From contig NW_002476559.1 in the NCBI RefSeq assembly GCF_000189635.1, positions 1,674,001 through 1,738,000 of the forward strand: a DNA stretch of 64,000 nt, written 5' to 3'. How positions within the stretch are numbered: position 1 is the stretch's first letter; every line of letters starts with the position of its first letter. Shown piece by piece: positions 21,373 to 56,884 of the stretch. The DNA is from Tetrahymena thermophila SB210. Its lineage: Eukaryota > Ciliophora > Oligohymenophorea > Hymenostomatida > Tetrahymenidae. The position numbers were made by a program, and so were the translations under genes. Under the pieces are notes generated by a model, which ran no database searches, was not told the DNA's origin, and worked only from the letters and a program-made list of their open reading frames with translations.

Positions 21373-23571
21373 ATGAGCTAGGTAGACAGCGAGTTCTTGG
21401 TTTTATTTTTAAATCAATTAGTTAATAACGAAGTTTTTGCAGAAAAGGGTTTCATTAAAAAGCTCTAGTTAGTTGCAGAAAGCATTTAGAATGATTAGGC
21501 TTAAAAGAATGTTGATATTGCTATCTCTTCTTTAAAGTAATTTATACAAAAAAATATGGAGGAGTTCAAGGAAAATGAAGAGCTCAAGATTTTATCACCC
21601 ATGAAATAGCTCAAAGTCAAACGTTTGTATGTAGACGGATGCTTTGATCTCATGCATTCAGGTCATTTCAATGCCATAAGATAGGTAATCTCAATTTTCA
21701 TATCAAAATAAATTAGATTTATTGCTTAAATAATTTTCCCTCTCTATTTACTCAACTAAACTAGTTTTTTTTCAAAAGGCTAAATAATACTGCGAAACTC
21801 TTGTTGTTGGTGTCATTGCCCAAGAAGAAATCACCAAGAGAAAAGGTCCTCCCGTTCTCAGTTATGAAGAAAGAGTTGGAATCGGTAATATTTTTATCTT
21901 TATTTCATTACATGGATTTAATGAATTAGGATGATATAAAAAACTTCAAAACGTGGAAAAATAGAAAGATATTTTTTTATTAAAACGAGCTTCAATCTAT
22001 TACTTTCTTACTTAAATGGTTCTAGAGATAAATTTTAGTTGATATTTAATTTAAAATGAAATAATAATTCAAGTTTACCTTTTTTATATTAACTACTTTG
22101 TCAAAAATAATCAGCTAAGGCTTGTAAATGGGCTGACGAAATCTGCGAACATGCTCCTTATGATCCAACTATTGAGCTTATTGATCGTCTCAACTGTAGT
22201 CATGTCGCCCACGGAGACGATATGATCGTTGGACCTGATGGCTGTGATGCTTATTCCCCTTTTAAGATCTCAAACAGAATGATGTAAAATATATTTATTA
22301 TTACTCTTCAAAAATAGCTAGCTGAAAAATGATTTTCAAAACAGAGCTAACAATGAAAAAGATTAAAAAATATTAATAATTTGATTAAAATTTAACAAAA
22401 ATAGAACTTTCAAGAGAACTGAAGGTATTTCTACCACTGATATCGTAGGTAGACTTCTATTGATGACCAAGAATTAATAGAGTATTGAAATAGTAATAAA
22501 TTAGATAATTATTAATAATGCAATTAGGGAGATATGAATCAATCAATTTATTTATTTATTTTTCAATAGAGTTCAACACAATAAAACTTATTTTTATCTA
22601 ATAAAATTTCAATTGATTAATTCATCAATTTTTTATTTTGTATAAATGTAGAAAAAAATTCGTAAATTAAGTGGAGAACAAGGAATTACAGCAAGCAAAA
22701 TTGAATCTTTGGAAAACACAACTAACATTAAAGAAGTTGATGAATCTACTGCTGTCAAACTAAAACTTTTGAACACCACAAAGAGAATTAGATAATTCAG
22801 TTAAGGAAACAGAGAACCAAAAGAAGGAGATAAAATTGTTTATATTGATGGCTCTTTTGATATGCTTCATATTGGCCACATTGAAACTTTAAAGAAAGCC
22901 AAAGAACTCGGAGACTACCTTATTGTTGGTTTACATGATGATGAAGTAAAAATATTTTTTTTTTAATTTAAAAGGATCTAAAAGAAATAAATAAATCAAT
23001 CAAATTAATCTGAATTTAATGATATTTTAAAATAAAAATAGACTGTTTAGGAAAAGAAAGGAAGCAATTATCCTGTTTTGACCCTTTAAGAAAGAGTTCT
23101 TAATGTTTTGGCTATGAAGGTAAATTGATAAATAAATTATTAAGAAATATAAACAGTTTTTTGATAATTTTTAAATAGTATGTTGATGAAGTTATTATTG
23201 GTGCTCCCTGGTAGCCAACAGAATAATTAATAAAGCAATTTAACATCAGTATAGTTGTTGAAGGAACAATGACTAAGCTAAAAGAAAACAAGCCAGAAGT
23301 TATTGAACAAGATCCTTATTTAGTTCCCAAAAAATTAGGTATTTTCAAGCAAATCGAATCCTCAAACGACATGACCACTGATAAAATAGTTGAAAGAATC
23401 ATTGAAAACAGATTGAGGTAAAAAAAGCATAATTAAATAAAATAAAATTTTATTAGGCATTTAAAAATTTTATTTGTTTGTTTTAAAAATAGATTCCTTG
23501 AAATTTACAATGTCAAAAACAAAAAGTAAGACTTGTACTATGAATAAGAAAGAAAAGTTAAAGAAGTCTGA
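21373..23571 (+). CDS. PCYT2: CTP:phosphoethanolamine cytidylyltransferase
   Basis: Catalyses CTP + phosphoethanolamine to CDP-ethanolamine + diphosphate, the regulated step of the Kennedy pathway to phosphatidylethanolamine. Eight exons (21373-21684, 21779-21884, 22115-22283, 22405-22492, 22652-22945, 23042-23119, 23179-23417, 23493-23571), all phases consistent; 455 codons (454 residues). Two cytidylyltransferase domains are visible. The first has [11 protein letters not shown] with HxGH at 95-98 and [13 protein letters not shown]; the second has [11 protein letters not shown] with HxGH at 298-301, then GAPWQPTE and [13 protein letters not shown]. Tandem domains with HxGH in each half are diagnostic of ECT rather than the single-domain choline enzyme. 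An extra ~75-residue N-terminus precedes the first domain. Soluble/cytosolic; no signal peptide. Identification is firm. Confidence 0.95.
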
Positions 23572-36314: not shown

Positions 36315-39100
<2,786 letters not shown>

Positions 39101-43075: not shown

Positions 43076-44281
43076 TTTCTCAAATTTATAATGAAATAAA
43101 TATTTGATAATACCGATTAAATTATTCATGCTTAGCATATCCAAAAAAGAAATCATTTAATTAATTATCAAATTTTTATAAAGATAAATTGTATGTAAAT
43201 CTAAGCGGGAAACTTACTTATCCAAATAAATAAATCAATTAATGAAAAGTAAAAATTTAAAATTAAAAGTAAAAATTTATTCAAAATATTCATCAAGAAA
43301 TCTTTTTTTAATTTTTTGAATCACTTCCTAGCTTTATTTTTCTATTAAAGCTCAAGAAAAAATTTTCAAATTATTAAAGATAAATAATCGAATCTTTTTT
43401 TCATTAAAACATTCCATTAAAATCTTCAATCTTAATGTAATTTTTCTAATTTAACTATTAAAATTATAATTCATTGTTTTTCTTTTAATTTTTATAAAAA
43501 ATAAACAATTCTATTTTCTCTTTTTCCTTAAATAAAATTAAAGGATATCTCATACTTAGTCTTGGGTTTATTTTTAAAATAGAATTGTTAGTAATAAATT
43601 TTGTTTTAAAAAAATCTAAATAAAATTCATTTAAAACAAATTTCTTAATAATTAGCTAAATATCTAACTAACTAGCTTTATTTCCTCGAGTTTATTTTGT
43701 AATAAATAAATAATTAAATACCTTCTATCTTTGATGTTTCTTTAAGTGGGATTAATTAATTAATTCATTCATTTTTGGCTTTTAATTTTCCTTTTAATTA
43801 TTTTAATTTATTCAATTAAAAAATTTGGCATGCTTGGTCTCTGTTTCTAATTTGTTTATGTTGTTTGTCTTTTGAAAGATATTTATTTGTTTTTATCATT
43901 GGTTTTTTCCTGGGGAGGTTTTTGTAAGATTTTTGTTTTTTTTTGTAAGATTTGGTTTTTCTATTGCTTTAATTAATATTTTATGTGTTTGTTTGTTTGT
44001 TTATTTGTTCGTATTGAGAGATTTTATTAATCTTTTTCTTAATTTTTATTATCTTTTTTTCTTTTTATTTATTTTAATTAATTTTTTTCTTTTTCTTTTT
44101 TATTTTCTTGAAACAGATTTGCGAGATTTTCCTGCTTGAACCCTAGTGAGATTGATTAGTCATAAAAGAATAACATGCCTTGATTTAAAAAAATACTTTT
44201 TATATAGGATGATTTTTTTTTGAATAGTGATATATATGAATAAAATGTGTTTAAAATGATATTATGAAGTAGTAAAGTTTA
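43076..44281. other. AT-rich intergenic spacer
   Basis: No supported gene. The T-rich stretch 43840-44140 gives an open plus-strand frame (F/L-rich) purely through composition. Nothing else recognised. Confidence 0.5.
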
Positions 44282-44707
44282 TCAATCTTTTAAATCTTGC
44301 GGAGGTTGAGCAAAGAGTGGGCATAGAATAGTTTCGATTCTTGTGGATGTGTAATGCGGGAAAGCCACAAGAATTTTTAAAAACTCGCTATTCTTCTCTT
44401 TGATCATCTTAAAAACTGAAGGATTTAATAGGAAAGGTTTTAAAAACTTAGATTGATGGAACTTCACCAGTTCAGATGGTATCATTTTAAACCAACGACC
44501 CTTTTCTCATACGAGGATATCAAGAAGATATGTATTCGAGAAGGCAAATAAGAAAGAAACCTGAAATGCTCCCATAAATAATGCCTAAACTACTTTAAAG
44601 AGAGTTTAAAAAGTGTTGTAGGCATCGTACATTTATGAAATATTCCAAAATTTGCTAACCATTATCCCTCGAATCCATTGAATCACAATCGCACAAGAAG
44701 TAGTCAT
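44282..44707 (-). CDS. Short frame interrupted by one TGA
   Basis: A 142-codon frame from ATG 44705-44707 to TGA 44282-44284 is broken once by TGA at 44507-44509. Its composition is markedly richer in G/C than the surroundings and both halves look like protein: MYDAYNTFQTLFKVVQALF and FLFAFSNTYLLDI before it; MIPSELVKFHQSKFLKPF and FPHYTSTRIETILCPLF after it. The first half is hydrophobic and may enter a membrane. Alternatives: an in-phase intron removing the TGA (44501-44560, 60 nt, GTTTCT...AAAAG, or a 51-nt GTATGA...GTGAAG), read-through or selenocysteine, or a gene freshly broken by a nonsense change. No SECIS-like ATGA/AA/GA arrangement was seen in the ~60 nt after the stop. Product not recognised. 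Confidence 0.5.
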
Positions 44708-45977
44708 TTTTATTGTCTTTTTCAATTTTGAATTCTTTAACATTATTTAATTATTATATTTCAATTGATATTTTCTTTTTAATTAATTTCCTTTTTCTCC
44801 CCAAAATTCAAATCAAAAAAAAGCAAAATAAATAATTCAAATCAAAATTTATAGAAATCAATTACAAAAATCAAATCAATTTCATTTAATTCCCCACAAA
44901 AAAAAAAGCAAAATTAAATTAATTATTAAGAATAAATTTTTATTTTGTTATTCAATAATAAGCACATTCGATTTATATATAAACAGATTATTCCTTCGAT
45001 CATTTTTTTAGTTTTGAAGCGTATTCAATTGAAATTAAAATTAATAATTAGAATTTAAAATTAATTTTTTCATAAAATAATAAAAATATTTTTATCAAAA
45101 TGCATTTTTAAATTAAAAAATAATTGATCTTGTAAAAAAAATCAAAGACTTGATAAGCTTTTGAATGAATTTTTATTTTTATAAAGTGGTAGAATTAATT
45201 ACATAACTACAAATTTTATATTAAAAATTTTATCTATAATTTTTGCCTTTACTTTGAAATCTTAAAATGCTTTATTTTATAAAGAGAATAATTGTAAGTA
45301 AAACATTATTCTTTGTAATAGATTTATATAAGTTTTTTGATAAATATTTATAATTGGTTTACAACTAAAAAATCAAAGAGTTTAAATTTAAATTTTTAAA
45401 TAAATAATCTAAAAATAAGTTATGATGGATAAGCAAGCAATCTAATTAAAATATAATTTTATTTATATTTAAGCAAATAATTTTATTTAAACATAAATAG
45501 TTAGTTTATATTTGAAAAAAATAGAATTTTAATTTTTATTTAAAAAAATTCTTTCAAACTGAAATATTATTCAAAAAAAGATTATTTTGCTTATCGCTAT
45601 CATATTACAAAAGCAATTTTAATTAAAATAAATTCTAAATAATTCAAGCAAAAATATTTAATAAATAATTTAGCTTAAAATTTGTATGAATATCTTGTAA
45701 ATTAATGCAGTATTATTAATTTTCTTTTGATATTGTTTCTTAGAAGATATGTTAAGTTTAAATTGAAAAAATTTTGTTGTTGTATTTATTAGCTTGTTAT
45801 GAAATAAATAAAGCAAGTGTTTGTCTATTCAGAAATTAAAACCGAAATTTAATCTGAATATGAAGAAATATTTTGATGAATATTATATAAAAATTAGAAA
45901 TATTTTTTACTTTTAAGAGTTATTATATGACATAATTTTAAAATTATATTAATTAATTAATATTAAAACAGCTGATT
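44708..45977. other. AT-rich intergenic spacer
   Basis: Between the short TGA-interrupted frame and the stop of the dynein-tail gene. No coding frame of normal composition on either strand. In particular, nothing here resembles dynein motor (AAA) exons. Confidence 0.6.
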
Positions 45978-48900
45978 TCAGTTTTAGCTTGAGTTTAAAT
46001 TTTAAATTTATTGCTATTAATTTTGTCCCTATTAAACTTATAAAAAATTTTATTATTTAGGTTAATCTGAAAGTTCAGGGTTTTTGGGATCTTAATCTTA
46101 CTGCTAAGATGGTTTTTGAGACATTTCTGATTAATCAATTTATTATATTTATCTTTAAGAAGGATTTAAATTTATAAATGAAGAAGAATTATTTATAGGA
46201 GCCAAAACTTCTATCATTGAAGGAATTTATTAAAACTCTTCTATCATATTGTAAAGCTAGTACTTTCTTATAAAAGAATATGTTATTTATAAGCTTTGTT
46301 CTTGTATGAGGAATGGTTCCTATTTTTTAAAATAAATAATTCTATATTAAATAAAAGATAAAATTGAAAGTAATTTAATTTAATGAGAGAGACAGAAACA
46401 TTAATTAATTAATAAATCAATCTATCAATAAATGAATTATTACCAGATCAGGAAACAGCTTTTACTGCTAATTATTAAGTATTATGTTTATTTAATTATT
46501 AATCTGAGATTTTTTGTCTTCAATTGAAGTTAAAAGCTTTAATTCGTTGCAAAACTTTAAAATATTGCTCATGTTTTGCAAGAACTAGAAAAGCTAAATG
46601 ACTACTTCACTATTTTAGACATCCAAGTCCAAGTAATCTTAAATTTCCAAAATTTTGACAATGTTATTCTATCTAGAGGCAAGAACTTCCTCTATTTCTA
46701 GCATTAACGAATCTGTTTGTATTATTTTGTAATGCTGATTAAGTAGACTATTCTAAATATCTATCCAATATTTTACTATTTCCCAAAACCTTTCTGTTTT
46801 TGACAGAAACCTATAAATTCATTTTTTATATTTTGATTTGTATTTTTTAATTTTAATTTTATCAATCAAAGTTATAAAATTTTTATAATTTAAACATAAA
46901 TTCTTACAGTTGTGCATAAAAAAAGTCTACTAAATTTAATAAATCAGATTCGAAATTCAAAAAAACTAAATAAAATGAAATTTATTGAAAATAATCAATT
47001 ACACTTTATGTGCCTAGTAAAATGAGAAATCTGCGTGATATTTAGGATCGATGTCTAAGTGCTGGTAAGTGACTAGTATACTTTTCTTAATTAGATCTAA
47101 CTAGTCATAATCATTTTAAAGTTCTTCTTTTAGTCTTTGCATGATAAAATTAACATCTTACAAATCTCTGTGGATTTGCAAGTACGTTAAATTCTTATTT
47201 ATGAAAGTGTTTGTTTTAATTTTAAAGATTTCGATTTCTCTCTCAAGCTACTGCTTGTATTTAAATTGAATGCTGTCCATGTTTGCTTGAATTTCTGTAA
47301 TTTTCTTTTCAAGTTCCCCATACGAATATATTGTCTGAGTGATCTTTTATAAATTAATGAAATAGTTTGACTTTGTTAAAAACAAAAAAAGACTTACTAA
47401 TTATTTCAACTAGCCAGAGAGCATAATTTTTTTATTAACACAAACTTGGCTCAAATCTTAAATTCTTCTCATAAAACTTTTGTCTACGTCTCTTTACTTT
47501 TCAATGATTTAATAGGAAATAAGGAATTAGTAAAACTAATCCAAATTCTCAGGGTAATTGTAAAGTAGCTTATTATTTTGCTTTAGTTTCTCAAAGAAGA
47601 AGCATGCCATTTGGTCTATTTTTTCTTCGATTGCAGCAAAAGAATTCTTATAAAAAATATTCATCTGATTTTTGACCTACTCAATTAATTCTGTGTGGTC
47701 TAAACTATAAAATCCTATGTCCATGTGATTATCCATTTCATACAAATCCTTTTTATCCTGCAAGAAAACATTAAATAAATCTGAAAATTCCTAAGCCTCA
47801 TATCTACCCAGTTAACTGTGTTATTAAAAAGAGATCAATAAAATAGTTTATGAATTATAATTGATATAAAGGAAGTGTTTATTACTCATTCTAAATAGGT
47901 TGATAATTCTTATAAAGCTCTCTAAGAGTTTGGATGACTCCACATTTGTTTTCAATTTATCTGTAATTTAAATCTAGCTAATTTGTTTAAATGCAATTAA
48001 TTAAAATATTTATTTAATTCCGTTTAAAAATTATTTACCATTTGCTGAAGTTCGCTAAAGTTTTGCTTGTATTCAACACTGCTTTTGATGTTTTATTGAA
48101 GTTCTGCCTTCATTTCAACGGGGTCTTAGCTTTAGTTCTCAAAAAAGTCAATTATCATGTATTCCTTTAGCTCAGGTCGCATGTAAAAATATTCATGAAG
48201 ATTAGCAGTAATTTCACAACTTTTATATACTATAGATTCGAATATTTAATTTTATAATTCTCTGGAAGGATACAGCTTCTCACACCCATTATCTTCCTTC
48301 TCAAGAAATCCATTAATCTTTACTTTTCCTCCTACTTCTCTCCCCTAATATCAAATTAAAAAAATAATCACAATCAAAAGATAAAATTTATTTGTTTGTT
48401 TGTTTGTTTGTTTGTTTTACGTGTATCATATTATCAATCATTTTAACAATAGATCCCAGTCCTTAGCACATCAACCAAGATTTAGAGTCTGTATGTAAAA
48501 AATCTACAAATCTAATAAAATGTGTTAGCTATTTATATTGGAAAGTCAAAACAGCTTGTTAAGTAAAAGATGCCTCTTCTAATATAATTTCAAATTAATA
48601 AATTTAAATAAAACGAATAAGTAAGACATTTATTGCTAGCAAGTAAATTTTAAAATAAAATTATTATTTAATATCTATAAAAAATATAAACAATAAAAAA
48701 TTATTCAGCATTATTTAAACTTTGATAATTCACTTTAATGAAACTAAATTTATTGGGAAAGCTGACAAAAATATTATGAATTTGAATAAGAATAAATAAT
48801 TTCTTTGATGGTTTTTATAAATAAATCATCATTATTTTTTTATAGATTATTAAATTTATTGAATAAAATTTTAATTTAAAATAATTATTTCTACATTCAA

Positions 48901-50754
48901 AAAACATTAAGAAATTCTTCTAAAAAAAATTGTATTTAATTAATATCAACTCATAAAATTAATAATTAAAAAGATAAAAAATATCATAAAAATGATCAAT
49001 TTTCATTTCACAAAATAAATCAATCTTTGTTATTTTATAATATTTACTTAAAATGAAAAATTGATATTTGATAAAAATTAAGAAAATAGTCTTCTCATGG
49101 TTGGTAAATATGGGTAAATTAAAATGAAAAATACATATGATATTTTTATTATAAAATTAATATCACAATTAATGTGAGAAAGCAGTTTGTTTTTTGTTTG
49201 CTTGCTTGCTTCTGTTTGATAAGAGTAAATTAAATTTTTAATGAATACATAATGTTGAAATATGATGAACTTGAGTGAAAACCTAGAGAGAATTCTTGCA
49301 GGAGTTAGATATAATTTCAGATATTTTACTAGTTAACTCAGTTAATCTTTCTATAAAAGTAGTTTGCAGGTAGTTCATTTAGAATTTGTGATACTTTTTA
49401 ATATCTATACTTGAAAAAGATTGAACGTAATTTGTACTAAAAATTGCTAATTGGGAAACCTCTAAGCAAATACCTCTTATTTTGAGGATAGATTTTCTAA
49501 ACATAGGATTCAGTATGAACAGTTTACTTTCAATAGTTTGTCTACATTTTTGCATCACTTGTTTTCTCATCAGTTTCTTCCATCTCTAGAATATCTTGAA
49601 TTCTGAGAACTATTTAAAAAACTGTATTTTCTTCAAATTGTAGTAAGATTTCTTCTCATTCTAGAATCTCTCTATATTCAAAAACTATTAATCTCCCTTA
49701 TTGTAAATTATTACTCCCTAAAGTAAAGAAAAAAAGAAATAAATATATATTTTAAAAGATCATATGAATTAATTTTTGAATTTCCAATTCATTTTTAGTT
49801 TTTTCTAATAAAATTTAATAAAACTTTTGTATTTTTTTATTTTTTTATAAAAGTATATTTGATGCTTGTTTTGGAATTAAAATGGGATGAAAATTTGTTT
49901 AGAATTATTAAATTTATATTTTGAATATTTAATGAAGAATTGGTTGTTTATTACTTGGTAAGAGACAGTATAATACTGCATAGGATTTTTTTTCTCAAAA
50001 GACGTTAAGATTAAATCGTAGGGAGTTTCGCCTTTATTAAAATAAAAATATTCTTCCTTGAGTTGTGGCCTTATATTGAAGTGGATGTTTGTAAAGAGCT
50101 AAAAGATTTCACTTTCTGTTATATTGTACTCGGTTGATTTTATCTTTTGGTATAATTGAATCTATTTTCTCCTTTTTATAATTAACTCATTTTATGTGTT
50201 GGAATTTTGCTCATTTTTTATCAATTATTCTATGAATTCAGAATCCTCTTTGTAGATATCTTATTGTTTTTATTTTAATTAATTCCCTGCATTTTCTTAT
50301 GTATTGATGCTTTATTAAAATCTCTACTTTAAAGGAGAAGGTGATTTAGATTTTCTAAATGAGGTAGTAGAAGTTTTCAAAAGAAAAGATTCATCTTTAG
50401 ATAAATTATTTTAAGCTCTTCTCAACTCAGGCAAATCGGAATTATCGACTTGCAAGTGATCTTTAAAGAGCTTTATTGAGCTCTGGTGGTGAAGTTTAGG
50501 TGAAAGGTTTATTGGGATTTTAGGAAGAATTTGGAATCCTTTTTCAGCCTTCAAAAAAACCTTTTTGACAGACTCTTCTTATTGTAGTGCAATTTAGTTA
50601 GTTTAATTTATTCTAACGCATTTAGCAACTAACTTCTGTTAGAAGAGATTATTTTTATTCAAAGGTGACAGTGACCTTGTTTTCTTATAATAATTGTTAT
50701 AATTGAGAAATCTAATTGTAATTAAGTCAATGTTATAGATTATTATTCATTCAT
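45978..50754 (-). CDS. Dynein heavy-chain tail, motor domain absent
   Basis: Exons: 49955 to ~50720 (5' end unresolved), 49249-49717, 48421-48578, 48039-48344, 47886-47977, 47398-47815, 47003-47343, 46444-46810, 45978-46262; all phases after the first agree; ~1070 residues. Exons 2-4 match the N-terminal tail of single-headed axonemal dynein heavy chains (DNAH3/6/7/12 type): GVIIYNKGDQQFLNIERF, FFKQFSEFKIFQRWKKLM, LFILNPMFRKSILKIRGICL, then FTQQAVLTFQYKQLTHFIRF and VDFLHTDSKSWL, the tail segment before the linker. A coiled-coil-like region and a linker-like start (FWEIVKYWIDIQNSLLNQHY) follow. Instead of linker and AAA1-6, the protein ends in a Q/N-rich tail and TGA. No motor exons fit in the 1.3 kb before the next gene. 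It may be a functional tail-only protein or a truncated relic. The in-frame ATG was not found; alternatives are at 50750 and 50754. Confidence 0.7.
48391..48417. repeat. TTTG microsatellite in an intron
   Basis: Six or seven TTTG units lie in the intron between exons 48421-48578 and 48039-48344 of the dynein-tail gene. Simple slippage repeat. Confidence 0.75.
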
Positions 50755-51430
50755 AAATTGCAATAATCTTGATGAAAAATATACAATTAATCATAAAAAA
50801 TATCTTAAAAATGAAAAAGGATTGAATTATTATTTTAACCAATACATTGAATTGATCTTTGCCTTGTTAATTTGGATGTAAATTTGGAATTAAAATGTTT
50901 TTCACTATCAAATTTTTTGTTTAATCTTTTAATTGCATTTGTTAATATTTACAAAAAAGCAATATGCTATTTAAATCTAATTTGTTTATTAAAGCAACAA
51001 AAAAAATATGTTTGTGATATTTCTTTCCACTTGAATAAACGATATTCAAATGCTAATATAAAAAAACAATAATAAAAATCCAATAAATTAATTAATTTAA
51101 ATCTATTAAAATAGAAATTTAAAATCATTTATTCAATTATTATTTCATTATTTTTATTATTTTATAATAAATATATCTGCTAATAAAATTAATTCCAAGC
51201 AGAACAAATAAATAAATTGATGGTTGTACTTTTGATTCTAAAATTTGTTTAGTTATTGTTATGAATACATAATAGAAAATTAAAATTAACTAATATCACA
51301 AATAAATCCTGCATTACTATCTAATTATAATAAAATAATTAGTATTTATTTTAGAAATGCAAGAGCAAAATCATATCGTAAATTTCTTTCAAGCTTTAAT
51401 TAAATATAATTCCTTTCAATATTAATTTAT
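50755..51430. other. AT-rich intergenic spacer
   Basis: Between the dynein-tail gene and the stop of the CLPTM1 homologue (51431-51433). A missing first exon of the dynein-tail gene could lie here, but I could not identify one. Confidence 0.45.
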
Positions 51431-53892
51431 TCAGTCAGCTTTTTCTTTTTGGTCTGAAGGTACAAGGTCTTCTTTTTTGAAACCGTGTTGCTAAGAAACA
51501 AACAAATAAATAAATAAATAAAGCGATGAATATAAATAAAAAACAAAATAAATAAATTTAATTACTGTTCTTTTGTGGTCAACCTTATAAATTTATCTCT
51601 GATAGATATAGATTATGAAAATAATATCTAATATTATTTAGTAAAAATTAGAATTAGTACAAAATAATAAGTAAATAAATAAACAAGTTAATACCATCTC
51701 TGAAACAAGAAAGTCTCTTGAGCAAAGGCATACTGATGACAAAGGCGAACAAGTCATCTACAATAGTGTTCAAAAACTTATAAATCATAGTTCTCCATGG
51801 TAAATGCTCAACGCTCTTAAGCTTGTAGTTAATATATAGCTAAGGAGTCATATTAATAAAACCTTTATATTTTTTAAATTAATTAAATTAAAATTAAACA
51901 AAATATTAAAATTTTTTATGTTAATAATTATTTACCAAAGACATAAATGAATCCGACTAAAGTTCTAATTACGAATGAGTACCAACCCTTGTGCTCAAGG
52001 TAGATAAGAGAGTAAACAGTGTATCCAGCTAATAAGGGAACCAAAGCATAATACAAATACTTAGTTGCTTGCTTGTCATACTCTTCAGTTGTGCGAATCT
52101 TTTTATTAAAATTTATCATTTATTTTTGCTAAAAATTTTTAACTTTTTTTATACATAACTTTGTTGGGTTTAATCAATTTCGAAGAATGGGAATTTGTTG
52201 TCTTTTCTTCTTTAACACTTTGCAGTTTTGTAGATCTTCCAAACTGTTACCAACAACTCTATGCCCGAAGAGGCTATGATAAGCCAACTAGTTTCTTCAC
52301 TATCAAGTAAATAAAGGAATACAACAACCTCAAATACGAATCCAGTGTATAAACTTCTCAAGCTTAAACCTTGATAGTTTTCTAAATTCCTCCAATAAGA
52401 AATATCTAAAAAAAAATATTATTTAATCCAAATGCTTAAAAGCAAAAAGCAAAGTATAAATAAAAATAAGTAAATAATGCCTTTAAGCAAAACATCAATG
52501 AATGAATGAAGTCAATGTAAATGTTTTTACCATTTTTAACAGCTAGCAATTCAAAAACAGAATGTAGGATTGAAACAATAAATGTAATTGCTAAATAATA
52601 AGGGTTATTGTCTCCTAAAATTTCTTTGAATTGTTCTAAAGAATTTGCATCGTGTAATCCATAACTTGCTTAATCATTAAATGTTTATTCCATCTGGCTT
52701 ATCATAAGAAGCTTTGCATGCCAGTAAGGATAGAAGACAATAGTAGTGTTGTAAACTGATGGCAAATCATTTTAATCAATAACCTCCTAGGTTGCTGTTG
52801 TTGCAGGTTAATTCTTGTTTTCTTCAGCAAGTTCTTCTTCGATTTAACCTTGATATACTAAATCTTTACGTCTAACCCAGAATTAAGACACATCCAAAAT
52901 AGGAAGGTACAATCTTTTTTAGTGATCTATCTTGAGGAGATCTTTGCATTTAATTATATATTGTTGAACACTTATCAAAGCAATTAAAATATAATTTTAC
53001 TTCTCAATTAAGGAGGTATTTGCTAAGGATGATACGAATTGGTGTCATGTGAAAGCTATATGTAAAATCTTTACCTAAAGTGAGGAGCTTTCTCTCCTAA
53101 GTTATTTTAAAATAATCTTTAAAAATCATAAAAAATAGTTTCTAAATTAATTGATTGATCTATTGATTGATTTATTACTCTTCTTGCTTTCTTTCTTAGT
53201 TTTAGGTTGAGGAACGTCTTCATTTGCAGATGAAATCAAATTCTATAGCTGCTCTTTAGTGATCTTTTCTTAAATAACAACTAATTCGCCTTATGCGTTC
53301 AATTAAGCTCCAGTATCCTAGTTTCTTATGCTTATACTCACTTCTGGATAAGGCTCGCTGAAAATTTACTCTTAAGTGAGAGAAAATGTTTTGTTAATAA
53401 AATTTTTTTCATCATAATTGTATTGCAAATTCTAAGTCTCCCAACTGTGCAAGACTTCGTTGTCTTTGATAATTTTTATCTTTAAATCCTGCAAAATTTA
53501 AAAAATTAAATGAGCTATTTATTTGATTGAATTTTTTATTTCATTTCATTCATTTTTCAAAAACAAAAAAAATATGGTCTAAACTTAAAATGAATGATTT
53601 AAATAAGGCGATTAATAATTAAAAATATTACAAAATTTTAATCATTTTCAAACGCATTGTGGTAGTAATTAGGATTGCTTCTATCTATATTATTACCCTT
53701 AATCATATTGAAAACAAAATTTCCAGCAATAAAAAGCAAGATCATATGAAACATTGAGAAGTTCCATCCTCCCTATTATTGCTACTGCTATTCTTCTTGC
53801 TAGGCAGGTACATTTTATTACTATTAATTCTATTAATTTTAAGAAGATTGTTGTTGATCTTATTAACTTCGCCTACTTGTGCTAATATTCAT
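51431..53892 (-). CDS. CLPTM1: CLPTM1-family multi-pass membrane protein
   Basis: Nine exons (53632-53892, 53179-53488, 53075-53116, 52531-53022, 52155-52405, 51936-52098, 51695-51862, 51566-51627, 51431-51490), phases consistent, 603 codons (602 residues; human CLPTM1 is about 670). Signature blocks in order: an N-terminal glutamine-rich run, a membrane anchor (FHMILLFIAGNFVFNMI), a beta-rich lumenal region (YLPILDVSQFWVRRKDL), AITFIVSILHSVFELLAVKN, DISYWRNLENYQGLSLRSL, LVPLLAGYTVYSLIYLEHKG, MTPQLYINYKLKSVEHLPWR, NTIVDDLFAFVISMPLLKRL, SCFRDDIIFIIYIYQRQIYK. The last blocks are near-invariant in the family. CLPTM1/CLPTM1L proteins sit in the ER; CLPTM1L is linked to glucosaminyl-PI scrambling and CLPTM1 to GABA-A receptor retention. 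A role in ER lipid or receptor handling here is inference. Confidence 0.93.
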
Positions 53893-56884
53893 TTTTATTC
53901 AAAAAGTTGTTTATTAAGATATCTTTATGATAAAAATCAATTAAATCTAAATAAACAAACACCAAAATGTTTTCTTGTGTTCTATTTTTTATTTAAAAAG
54001 CTTTTACCCCTCAATAATAATTAGGAGAAGTTAATAGTAGAATCCGTATGGAGATCATCCATAATTAAAATTAAAAAAAAACTAGCAACAGCTAAAGTTA
54101 TTTCTTTGATTTATATTTTGAAATTACATTTCTAAATTCAGCAAATAATATTTATTTAAATCAATAAGCACCTAAATAAATAAATAAACAATCAAATAAG
54201 CATTCATTTTTCTTTTCAAATCTTATCTCAAAAATATTTAGGATAAAAAAATAATTCAAAAATATTTGATTATAAGATAACATAAAACAAATATCTAAAT
54301 AATTTGTTTAGATCTATCTTTTGAAATATTATCAAACATGCCAAAAATAAATAAAAAAAATATTCTTGAATTTAAAATTTTAATCAATAATCAATAAAAA
54401 TGCTAATTTATCCAATAACTATTAAAACCCTTTAATTTTACTCTATAAAAATTTTATTTAATCTGAATACAAAATATTTTTATGTCATTTAAATATTTTC
54501 TTTAAAAATAGTAAACTTAAAAAGTTAAAAATAAATAAATTAAAATCTAACATAATAATTAGCAATAAAATAGTTAGTAAAAAACAAAAATAATCAAATC
54601 CTTAAAATAACTTTCTAATTAAATTTAAAGAACGACAAACTAACTTGAATAAAAAATCATAATTAAATTTTTTTAAAAAGATTTTCAATTAAAAAAATAA
54701 GAAATATTATATGTAATAATATCAATTAAATTTGTAAAAATAACTAGATAGAAAGCATAAAGTTTATTTAATTTAAATAAGATAAAAGTAAATTTTATTT
54801 ATTATTTGATTTTATTAATAAAATATATTTTGTAATAAATTTACACAAAAATTACAATTAAAATAAAATACTGAGAATGGTATTTAATTTGTTATAAAGA
54901 GCATGATATATAAAAATAATACTAATTAAATAGTAATATGACTAATTGACTTGCTAACCAACTGAATGAATATAAGCATATCTTATATTATTTTTACTAA
55001 TTTTATATTATCAGGTAATATAAACGTGCTAAGCTGAGAAATTAATTAAGAAAAATATTATACTTTTTTTATTCTTTAGAATAAGAAATTTAATTTGATT
55101 AAAAATCATAATACTAGATTGATGATAAAGTTAAGTGTGTAAATTATAGTCATTATATAAAAAAAAGATCAAAGTCATTATAAATATTTAATTATTAATT
55201 ACTAATTTATACTAGTAATAAAGAATATTGTTTTATTTGAGAAGTGGAAAAGGGATAGTATGCATATTAAAGTTGAGTTATTTAATAAATGAAGAGATTA
55301 CAGCTAAATAATGTCATTTATAGGAAAATAGCGTCACTTTTAACTGTTATATGCTAAGTAAACAAAGTTGAATTTTTCTAGAAGGTTGAAAAAATCAGAT
55401 TAAATTAAAATGCAATACTAAATCAAAATATTACAAAGAAATATTGTAATATTATTAAGTTAGTAGAAAACTAGATTTAATTAAATAGATCAAAAAAGGC
55501 AAGTCAGCATAAGCATTTCAGATTAATTTTTTTGCAATAAGATTTATAATACGTAATATTTTTAACTTAATGTTTTATTCAATTTTACATAGATTTAAGT
55601 CCCCTCACTATTAATTGTTAATAAATCACTTCCTCTTTTAGCAAAGTAAAGTTACCTGTTTGTTTCTAGTTTTTAAACCAATCACGCAAGCTGCACGTGC
55701 TAGGTAAACTTCTGTTTTCTAAATAGAGAGCATATTAGTTTATCTTTGAAAATTATTCATCTGAATTTCAATTTTTTTGAAAAAATTTGACTAAATATAA
55801 ATTCTATTCAGAAATTATAAAAAAATCTTTATTTTTAAATCGAAATTAAAATAATTTAACAAAAAAAGCAAATTTTTAGTATGAAATTAAATAAAAAATT
55901 TATCAGGAATATTCTTTTATTATTGATTTTAAATATTAATTTTTGAAAATAAACTAAGTTATGAGTAGTTAATGCTGTAAATCGTAGATTCAATTTTAAT
56001 TATCAGAAAATAATATGGTTTATTCTCTAAATCTCTTAAATTATATATTAAATATAATCATTAAGCTGCTCACATTTTATTAATCTTAGATATCAATTTA
56101 AATTAATAAAAACCTGTTTATGTTTGCTTGATTACTTACTTACTTAGTTATTAATATTTTATTAATATTATTGTTATCAAGTAAACAATCTATGGTTGGT
56201 TGATTCAATAAATATATTTTGAATGCATAATTCATACACTCAATATCTTACACAAATTTTAATTTAATTAACTTAAAATAAAAAAGATATTTTCTACTTT
56301 TTTTTCAAATCTACAAACACTAAAAAACAAAAAAATAAATATAATGTTAAGCTTTTTTAGCAATGATTGATTTATTATAATTAATTGAAAAGGATTAAAT
56401 ACTAATCATTACTAATTTTTCTTAGTTTTAACTTCCAAAATAGATTAATTATAGTAAAATATATTTTAAATGGATGATATTGCTTGTATTATTTTAAGGT
56501 ATAATTCTAATTTTCTGCTAAATCTGATAATTTGAATTGAACATTATTTATTACAGGCTTATAAAACCATTAAGCAAATCAAACTTTTTATATTTTCTAT
56601 TTGTTTTTAGGAATGATTAAAAATAAATAAAAGACATCAAAGAATTTTGGAATAAGCTGAGAAACCTTCTATTGTAAATTAATTTAATATCTTAGTCGTC
56701 ATAATTGATTAAATATTATTAAATAATTATTAATAAGGATTCTTGTTGGTGTAATATAATTAGAAATTTCACATATCCAAAGTTTTCATAATAATATTAA
56801 TTCAAACAAACTCCATAAAATTAAAATCCTCCAAAAGGAAAATAAACAACAAACAAAAAACCATCTCAAAAAATCCATTTAAAA
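53893..56884. other. Long AT-rich divergent spacer
   Basis: Separates the minus-strand CLPTM1 homologue (start 53892) from the plus-strand dehydrogenase (start 56885), so both promoters lie here. Apart from the candidate small frame at 55626-55733, which is richer in G/C and contains GCACGTGC, I see no gene or repeat. Confidence 0.5.
55626..55733 (-). CDS. Candidate micro-ORF or isolated first exon
   Basis: ATG at 55731-55733 opens MLSIQKTEVYLARAACVIG, then LKTRNKQ. The segment is visibly richer in G/C than the surrounding spacer and ends either at TGA 55626-55628 (35 residues) or at a good donor, CAG|GTAACTT, at 55656/55655 after 26 codons. No continuing exon was found to the left. It could be a short conserved peptide, the first exon of an unfound gene, or chance. 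Product not recognised. Confidence 0.25.

Follow-up and report, generated by a model that had tools for sequence, protein, structure and literature searches.

In a 64,000-nucleotide stretch of the Tetrahymena thermophila SB210 genome (contig NW_002476559.1, positions 1,674,001 to 1,738,000; hereafter the window, to which the coordinates refer), we identified a gene whose product is very probably the tail of a dynein heavy chain without its motor. Its supported part occupies positions 45978-50683 of the minus strand, is read with the ciliate code and encodes a protein of about 1,100 residues. Below, the locus and its product are referred to as the tail gene and the tail protein. We consider it likely that the gene is coding and selected as a motorless tail; that it also has a docking-type role has, in our judgement, a chance somewhat better than even.

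Both strands of the region were examined under the ciliate code; exons were built by hand first, and a self-written Viterbi gene finder, trained on the long open reading frames (ORFs) of five full-length heavy-chain loci of the same genome, was applied next. The gene finder recovered the hand-built internal exon chain with one exon corrected: a single exon placed by hand in another frame was rejected, and was split into 47977-47886 and 47815-47398. The resulting chain (Table 1) comprises nine supported exons; it begins at 50683, in a frame that is open from 50746, and ends with the TGA at 45980-45978. Its eight introns are all GT-AG, with a guanine-plus-cytosine (GC) content of 0.13-0.20; the eight exons of the first hand model lay at 0.23-0.33. 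An initial annotation of this DNA had already placed the gene on the minus strand, read it with the ciliate code, ended it at 45978 and divided it into nine phase-consistent exons. All of this held, with corrected boundaries and one exon split; its 5' end at 50754 was dropped, since the ATG there does not share the frame of the coding ORF. That ORF opens at 50746, and its first 255 codons contain no ATG. The best eight candidates listed for a 5' exon scored 30.9 to 25.9, and if the best of them (50938-50846, a weak candidate) is included, the protein has 1,104 residues.

As the initial annotation had also claimed, the coding frame holds no internal TGA: of the 1,074 codons counted from 50683, one is a TGA, and it is the final codon. 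The two other frames over the same coding sequence contain 25 and 39, and 2,000 composition shuffles gave a mean of 19.6 and a minimum of 7. Stops, frameshifts and bad splice sites, the usual signs of a broken gene, were looked for along the chain, and the terminal TGA and eight regular introns were all that was seen. Retention of intron 8 would lead to a TGA 8 codons past the donor. When left free in its choice of TGA, the gene finder joined the tail gene to a small downstream ORF via a 2-base exon; this solution was rejected as an artefact.

The proposed homology to the tails of single-headed axonemal dyneins was recovered by phmmer, BLASTP and profile searches alike. In phmmer searches against the Protein Data Bank (PDB), residues 242-409 of the first model matched DNAH6 (E = 1.4e-17), and the nine distinct sequences found at E values up to 1 all bore one of two labels, dynein heavy chain or, in the case of the axoneme entry 8glv, AAA+ ATPase protein. 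Using BLASTP, residues 237-796 of the tail protein were found to be collinear with the predicted full-length protein of contig C154 (E = 4e-50), and residues 237-789 with that of C122 (E = 2e-40). A genome search located the tail block at the tail-gene locus itself and on C154, C122, C91 and C242, with a weaker match on C262. A profile built without the tail protein scored it at 160.7 bits, the best of 500 shuffles reaching -0.6; judged by these sequence comparisons, the tail homology is far above chance.

The last profile domain in the tail protein covers residues 509-908, the part from residue 640 on contributing 25.1 bits, and the start of DHC_N2 in the C154 paralogue aligns with residue 870. 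Because the alignment reaches approximately residue 908, about 40 residues into DHC_N2, the tail is whole and the linker is broken off near its start; the initial annotation, which had let the homology end at the start of the linker, was right about the tail and stopped slightly short. When tested alone in the profile search, residues 760 to the end were not significant, either with composition correction (-2.8 bits, decoy maximum -0.6) or without it (22.5, decoy 23.0); residues 860 to the end did not reach significance alone, and residues 909-1104 matched nothing significantly. A phmmer search of solved structures with the C-terminal 623 residues returned weak unrelated matches and no dynein, and the C-terminal half had no single-sequence match elsewhere in the genome. 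Using a six-row DNAH6-type profile, hmmsearch did not separate this half from shuffles (best decoy 8.4 bits, query below 0), and hhalign gave a collinear alignment at E = 0.058. Its homology was shown only once paralogues from the same genome were used. A single-sequence structure prediction of exon 2 was all-helical and too poor to use (mean predicted local distance difference test score, pLDDT, 56.7; predicted template modelling score, pTM, 0.37).

Pfam searches with the whole tail protein and with three pieces of it returned no dynein domain and nothing else of relevance. Lack of a DHC_N1 match had been put forward as grounds for discarding the gene. This argument is invalid: in this genome DHC_N1 picks up six heavy-chain loci, none of which is among the five nearest full-length single-headed paralogues, and because these are missed as well, the silence of DHC_N1 on the tail protein refutes nothing.

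The motor was searched for in the 101-Mb assembly with the families AAA_6, DHC_N2, Dynein_C and Dynein_heavy, the resulting match counts being lower bounds. None of the four had a match on the contig that carries the tail gene. A complete linker (DHC_N2, 403 positions) is missing from the gene, in which about 40 of its residues align and neither Pfam nor the contig search gave a match; for the AAA1 P-loop, AAA2-6, the stalk and the C-terminal domain there was likewise no match on the contig, and the downstream DNA is non-coding. A spacer of approximately 1.2 kb follows the gene, with negative codon scores in all three minus-strand frames, and past it a weak coding signal resumes at 44.8-44.3 kb. 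The description of the protein in the initial annotation as all tail and no motor, with a Q/N-rich end (here in exon 9), a stop and no room downstream for the remainder, agrees with these data.

All four families fell on the same 25 canonical loci when match rows were grouped by place, a count that agrees with the 25 named dyneins of T. thermophila. Each of these 25 motor loci has a DHC_N2 match and a tail of its own, and all 25 predicted proteins carry the motif GPAGTGKT with 1,263 to 2,186 residues before it; the shortest of these pre-P-loop parts belongs to the C317 protein, which starts at a contig end. A tail-less motor that could serve as a partner for the tail protein was not found in the assembly. 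Over 230 consecutive residues, the C409 heavy chain shows no difference from the outer-arm chain of the T. thermophila PDB entry 7k58.

When the 25 motors were placed in a tree, C154, C122, C91 and C242 grouped as a single clade (support 100/100); among solved structures, the C154 protein came closest to a Chlamydomonas inner-arm chain of 8glv (758 bits), with DNAH6 next (692). A second tree, built from 16 tail rows (the tail protein, 3 PDB rows and 12 of the 25 tails of the genome), joined the tail protein to C154 and C122, two of these four paralogues, with a support of 100/99.9. By its sequence the tail protein is thus placed in the dynein-g type (DNAH6/DHC7) clade; four Tetrahymena chains (Dyh15, 22, 23 and 24) are assigned to dynein g in an excerpt of PMC9776847.

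Constraint was assessed at columns where C154 and C242 have the same residue; of three column sets prepared, one was tested, and the p values are uncorrected. The tail protein retains 26 of 60 tail-block columns and 8 of 36 linker-start columns, a drop with p = 0.048. For the motor-bearing C122 the corresponding counts are 34 of 60 and 17 of 36, and its own drop is not significant (p = 0.40). Compared directly, the two proteins differ in the linker start (p = 0.047) and show no difference in the tail block (p = 0.20). As far as conserved columns can tell, this pattern fits a docking end that is kept and a linker stub that is no longer needed.

Several observations weigh against a motorless tail gene with a docking-type role. 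The tail protein sits on a long branch (2.03) and has a deviating composition, as relaxed evolution would produce too, and the constraint contrast is weak and suggestive only, with p values of 0.048 and 0.047 from one of three column sets. The start codon and the N-terminal 30-40 residues are provisional, and a stub that no longer binds any partner would look similar in sequence. Relatives were not found in viral, bacterial or archaeal contigs.

One possible explanation for these features is that the gene was full-length until lately, has recently been truncated and is becoming a pseudogene, its frame being still open without present selection. Besides the long branch, the gene is single copy and its linker stub is poorly conserved, as this explanation would have it, and Tetrahymena does possess dyneins of low expression (Dyh13, 17, 18 and 23, according to an excerpt of PMC12399478). 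However, the 1,074 codons are free of stops and frameshifts, the eight GT-AG introns are intact, the gene has a terminal exon and a stop of its own, and no remnant of AAA_6, Dynein_heavy or Dynein_C was detected downstream or on the contig. We regard recent truncation as unlikely. The initial annotation had argued from the intact frames against old decay; an open frame fits that argument, and taken alone it shows no selection on the short form. Together with column retention it is still no proof of such selection, as a recent loss of the motor would look alike.

In our preferred reading, the gene encodes a free inner-arm tail and arose as an old duplicate of the dynein-g heavy chain (animal DNAH6, Chlamydomonas DHC7). 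From the early linker onward everything has been lost, namely the linker, the six AAA modules, the stalk and the microtubule-binding domain; the N-terminal block and the helical bundle, by which full-length relatives are held to the doublet, have been kept. For its action we tentatively propose a placeholder mechanism, to which we give a less than even chance. The free tail would associate with the small subunits that single-headed arms carry (actin together with centrin or p28) and may occupy a dynein-g type dock at radial spoke 3 (RS3) as a structural placeholder or competitor; by occupying this dock it would set where or when dynein g cannot pull. The expression, partners, docking site and effect of the tail protein are inferred; binding of actin with centrin or p28 and docking at RS3 are known for its relatives. 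In the excerpted text of PMC10266980, single-headed arms carry actin with centrin or p28, divergent N-termini place the arms, and dyneins d and g have tails that come together in a single complex at RS3; in Tetrahymena, the dynein-g tail is connected to the base of RS3 by Ccdc96/Ccdc113 (PMC7987202, in excerpt). Competition for intermediate chains, suggested in the initial annotation, is unlikely given this subunit composition of single-headed inner arms.

An additional scenario is that a coding motorless tail acts outside the axoneme, for instance as a holder of centrin, actin or p28, or in the cytoplasm as a decoy that draws off dynein assembly factors. The protein retains its tail block and bundle, its axonemal targeting is putative, and its unique Q/N-rich C-terminus might serve as a newly acquired binding site. 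Nevertheless, the best-kept part is the N-terminal region that places the arm on the doublet in relatives (PMC10266980, same excerpt), and a role outside the axoneme appears to us rather improbable.

An assembly misjoin that put a non-dynein stretch behind the tail of a complete gene is most improbable, as no unpaired motor was found in the assembly, the terminal exon is the gene's own and coding, and the linker columns are eroded already before the break. The dynein genes of Giardia are expressed from separate pieces, and a similar split heavy chain, its motor encoded elsewhere and joined by trans-splicing or present as a second polypeptide, is very unlikely indeed here because the 25 canonical heavy chains each have their own linker and tail, with no fewer than 1,263 residues ahead of the AAA1 P-loop, an argument that is strong and, the lists being lower bounds, not absolute.

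A second motorless heavy-chain-like gene was observed on contig C13 (L006, G000:C13:347000-356999, plus strand). It is similar to the tail gene in that a tail and part of a linker are followed by a stop (TGA at L006:5700) and then by another gene, a PRK-family gene on the minus strand. It differs in the extent of its linker, which covers DHC_N2 positions 1-278 of 403 (85.9 bits), and its protein has no detectable similarity to the tail protein. AAA_6 had no match on C13 in the assembly search; the one Dynein_heavy match beyond the canonical 25 (E = 0.018) is on this contig, approximately 170 kb from the gene. If the C13 gene is real, its sequence would point to a separate loss of the motor.

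Seven divergent heavy-chain-like genes also lie outside the canonical 25, on C334, C290, C273 and C297 (L007-L010) and on C114, C214 and C206 (L031-L033). Matches beyond the canonical set were obtained for DHC_N2 on C13, C290, C334, C273 and C297, and weak ones for AAA_6 on C273, C114, C297, C214 and C206 and for Dynein_C on C114, C206, C214 and C273. These seven genes are dynein-derived, as the tail gene is, but they continue past the linker into AAA-like sequence; neither GPAGTGKT nor GxxGxGK[ST] occurs in the parts of them that were analysed, and they have no detectable similarity to the tail protein. They may be DNHD1-like.

Table 1. Exons of the tail gene and adjoining features (window coordinates)
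Feature	Position	Strand	Remarks
Candidate first exon (uncertain)	50846..50938	-	MQLKD...; top of the 5' candidates listed; coding score 1.4 over 31 codons
Exon 1 of supported chain	49955..50683	-	Variable N-terminus, then start of conserved tail block (YDL...YYTVS); coding score 32.1
Exon 2	49249..49717	-	Core of inner-arm tail block (FFKQF...WKKL...KLFILNP..R...LKIR); 28-31% identity to C154 and C122
Exon 3	48421..48578	-	FIRFVDFL block of tail; profile domain 428-479
Exon 4	48039..48344	-	Helical tail; gene finder and profile
Exon 5	47886..47977	-	Helical tail; gene finder; within profile domain 509-908
Exon 6	47398..47815	-	Helical tail; gene finder and profile
Exon 7	47003..47343	-	End of helical tail; gene finder and profile
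Exon 8	46444..46810	-	First linker residues (DHC_N2 would begin at 870); similarity fades at ~908
Exon 9	45978..46319	-	Short helical stretch, Q/N-rich C-terminus, TGA 45980-45978; coding score 7.7 over 114 codons, low per codon
Non-coding spacer	44820..45977		Negative codon scores in three minus-strand frames; linker, AAA1-6 and stalk exons expected here

The surrounding window holds a number of other genes. The upstream neighbour of the tail gene (51431-54904, minus strand) is a CLPTM1 gene (Pfam PF05602, 274 bits), and downstream, at 44264-45032, overlapping short candidate genes without a Pfam match occur on both strands. A protein kinase with a C-terminal Pkinase_C domain lies at 36315-39100 on the minus strand (Pfam 214.8 and 31.1 bits). 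By eye, a two-domain ethanolamine-phosphate cytidylyltransferase is predicted at 21373-23571 on the plus strand, and a putative long cysteine-rich, furin-like surface protein was read from a GC-richer region at ~3.2-10.5 kb on the minus strand (GC 0.31-0.34 at 4-8 kb).

The tail protein resembles the dynein-g chains (DNAH6, DHC7, Dyh15/22/23/24) in its N-terminal tail block, helical tail and tree position; it differs from them in that its linker stops after ~40 residues, the AAA ring, the stalk and the microtubule-binding domain are missing, and the Q/N-rich end is new. In Chlamydomonas, oda4-S7 (beta) and oda2-t (gamma) indicate that a heavy chain without a motor domain can be tolerated (PMC11496786, in excerpt). 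These too are heavy-chain tails without a motor, but they are outer-arm mutations of a laboratory strain, whereas the tail gene is a separate single-copy gene of inner-arm type beside four motor-bearing paralogues. No natural tail-only inner-arm dynein gene was found in a literature search with most subscription journals outside its scope, and one may be in print. According to an excerpt of PMC2239267, one heavy-chain survey took the C-terminal motor model PF03028 as its starting point and discarded sequences shorter than 1,000 residues; because the motor is the criterion in such surveys, their lists can miss a tail-only gene.

If made and docked, the tail protein would be a natural counterpart of the truncation mutants used for dissecting dynein arms, and would offer a handle on why particular doublets lack the single-headed density IAX (dynein b/g) or show less of it, as an excerpt of PMC3468612 describes. 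A broader, and at present doubtful, extension is that ciliates carry dedicated motorless inner-arm tails as axonemal parts, which would fill dynein-g docks on chosen doublets, in chosen zones of the axoneme or at chosen life stages; motor density per dock would then be set by competition between pulling and non-pulling chains, and the class would have been missed by motor-domain surveys. The occurrence of two mutually dissimilar motorless heavy-chain-like genes in one genome suggests that the motorless state is not a one-off.

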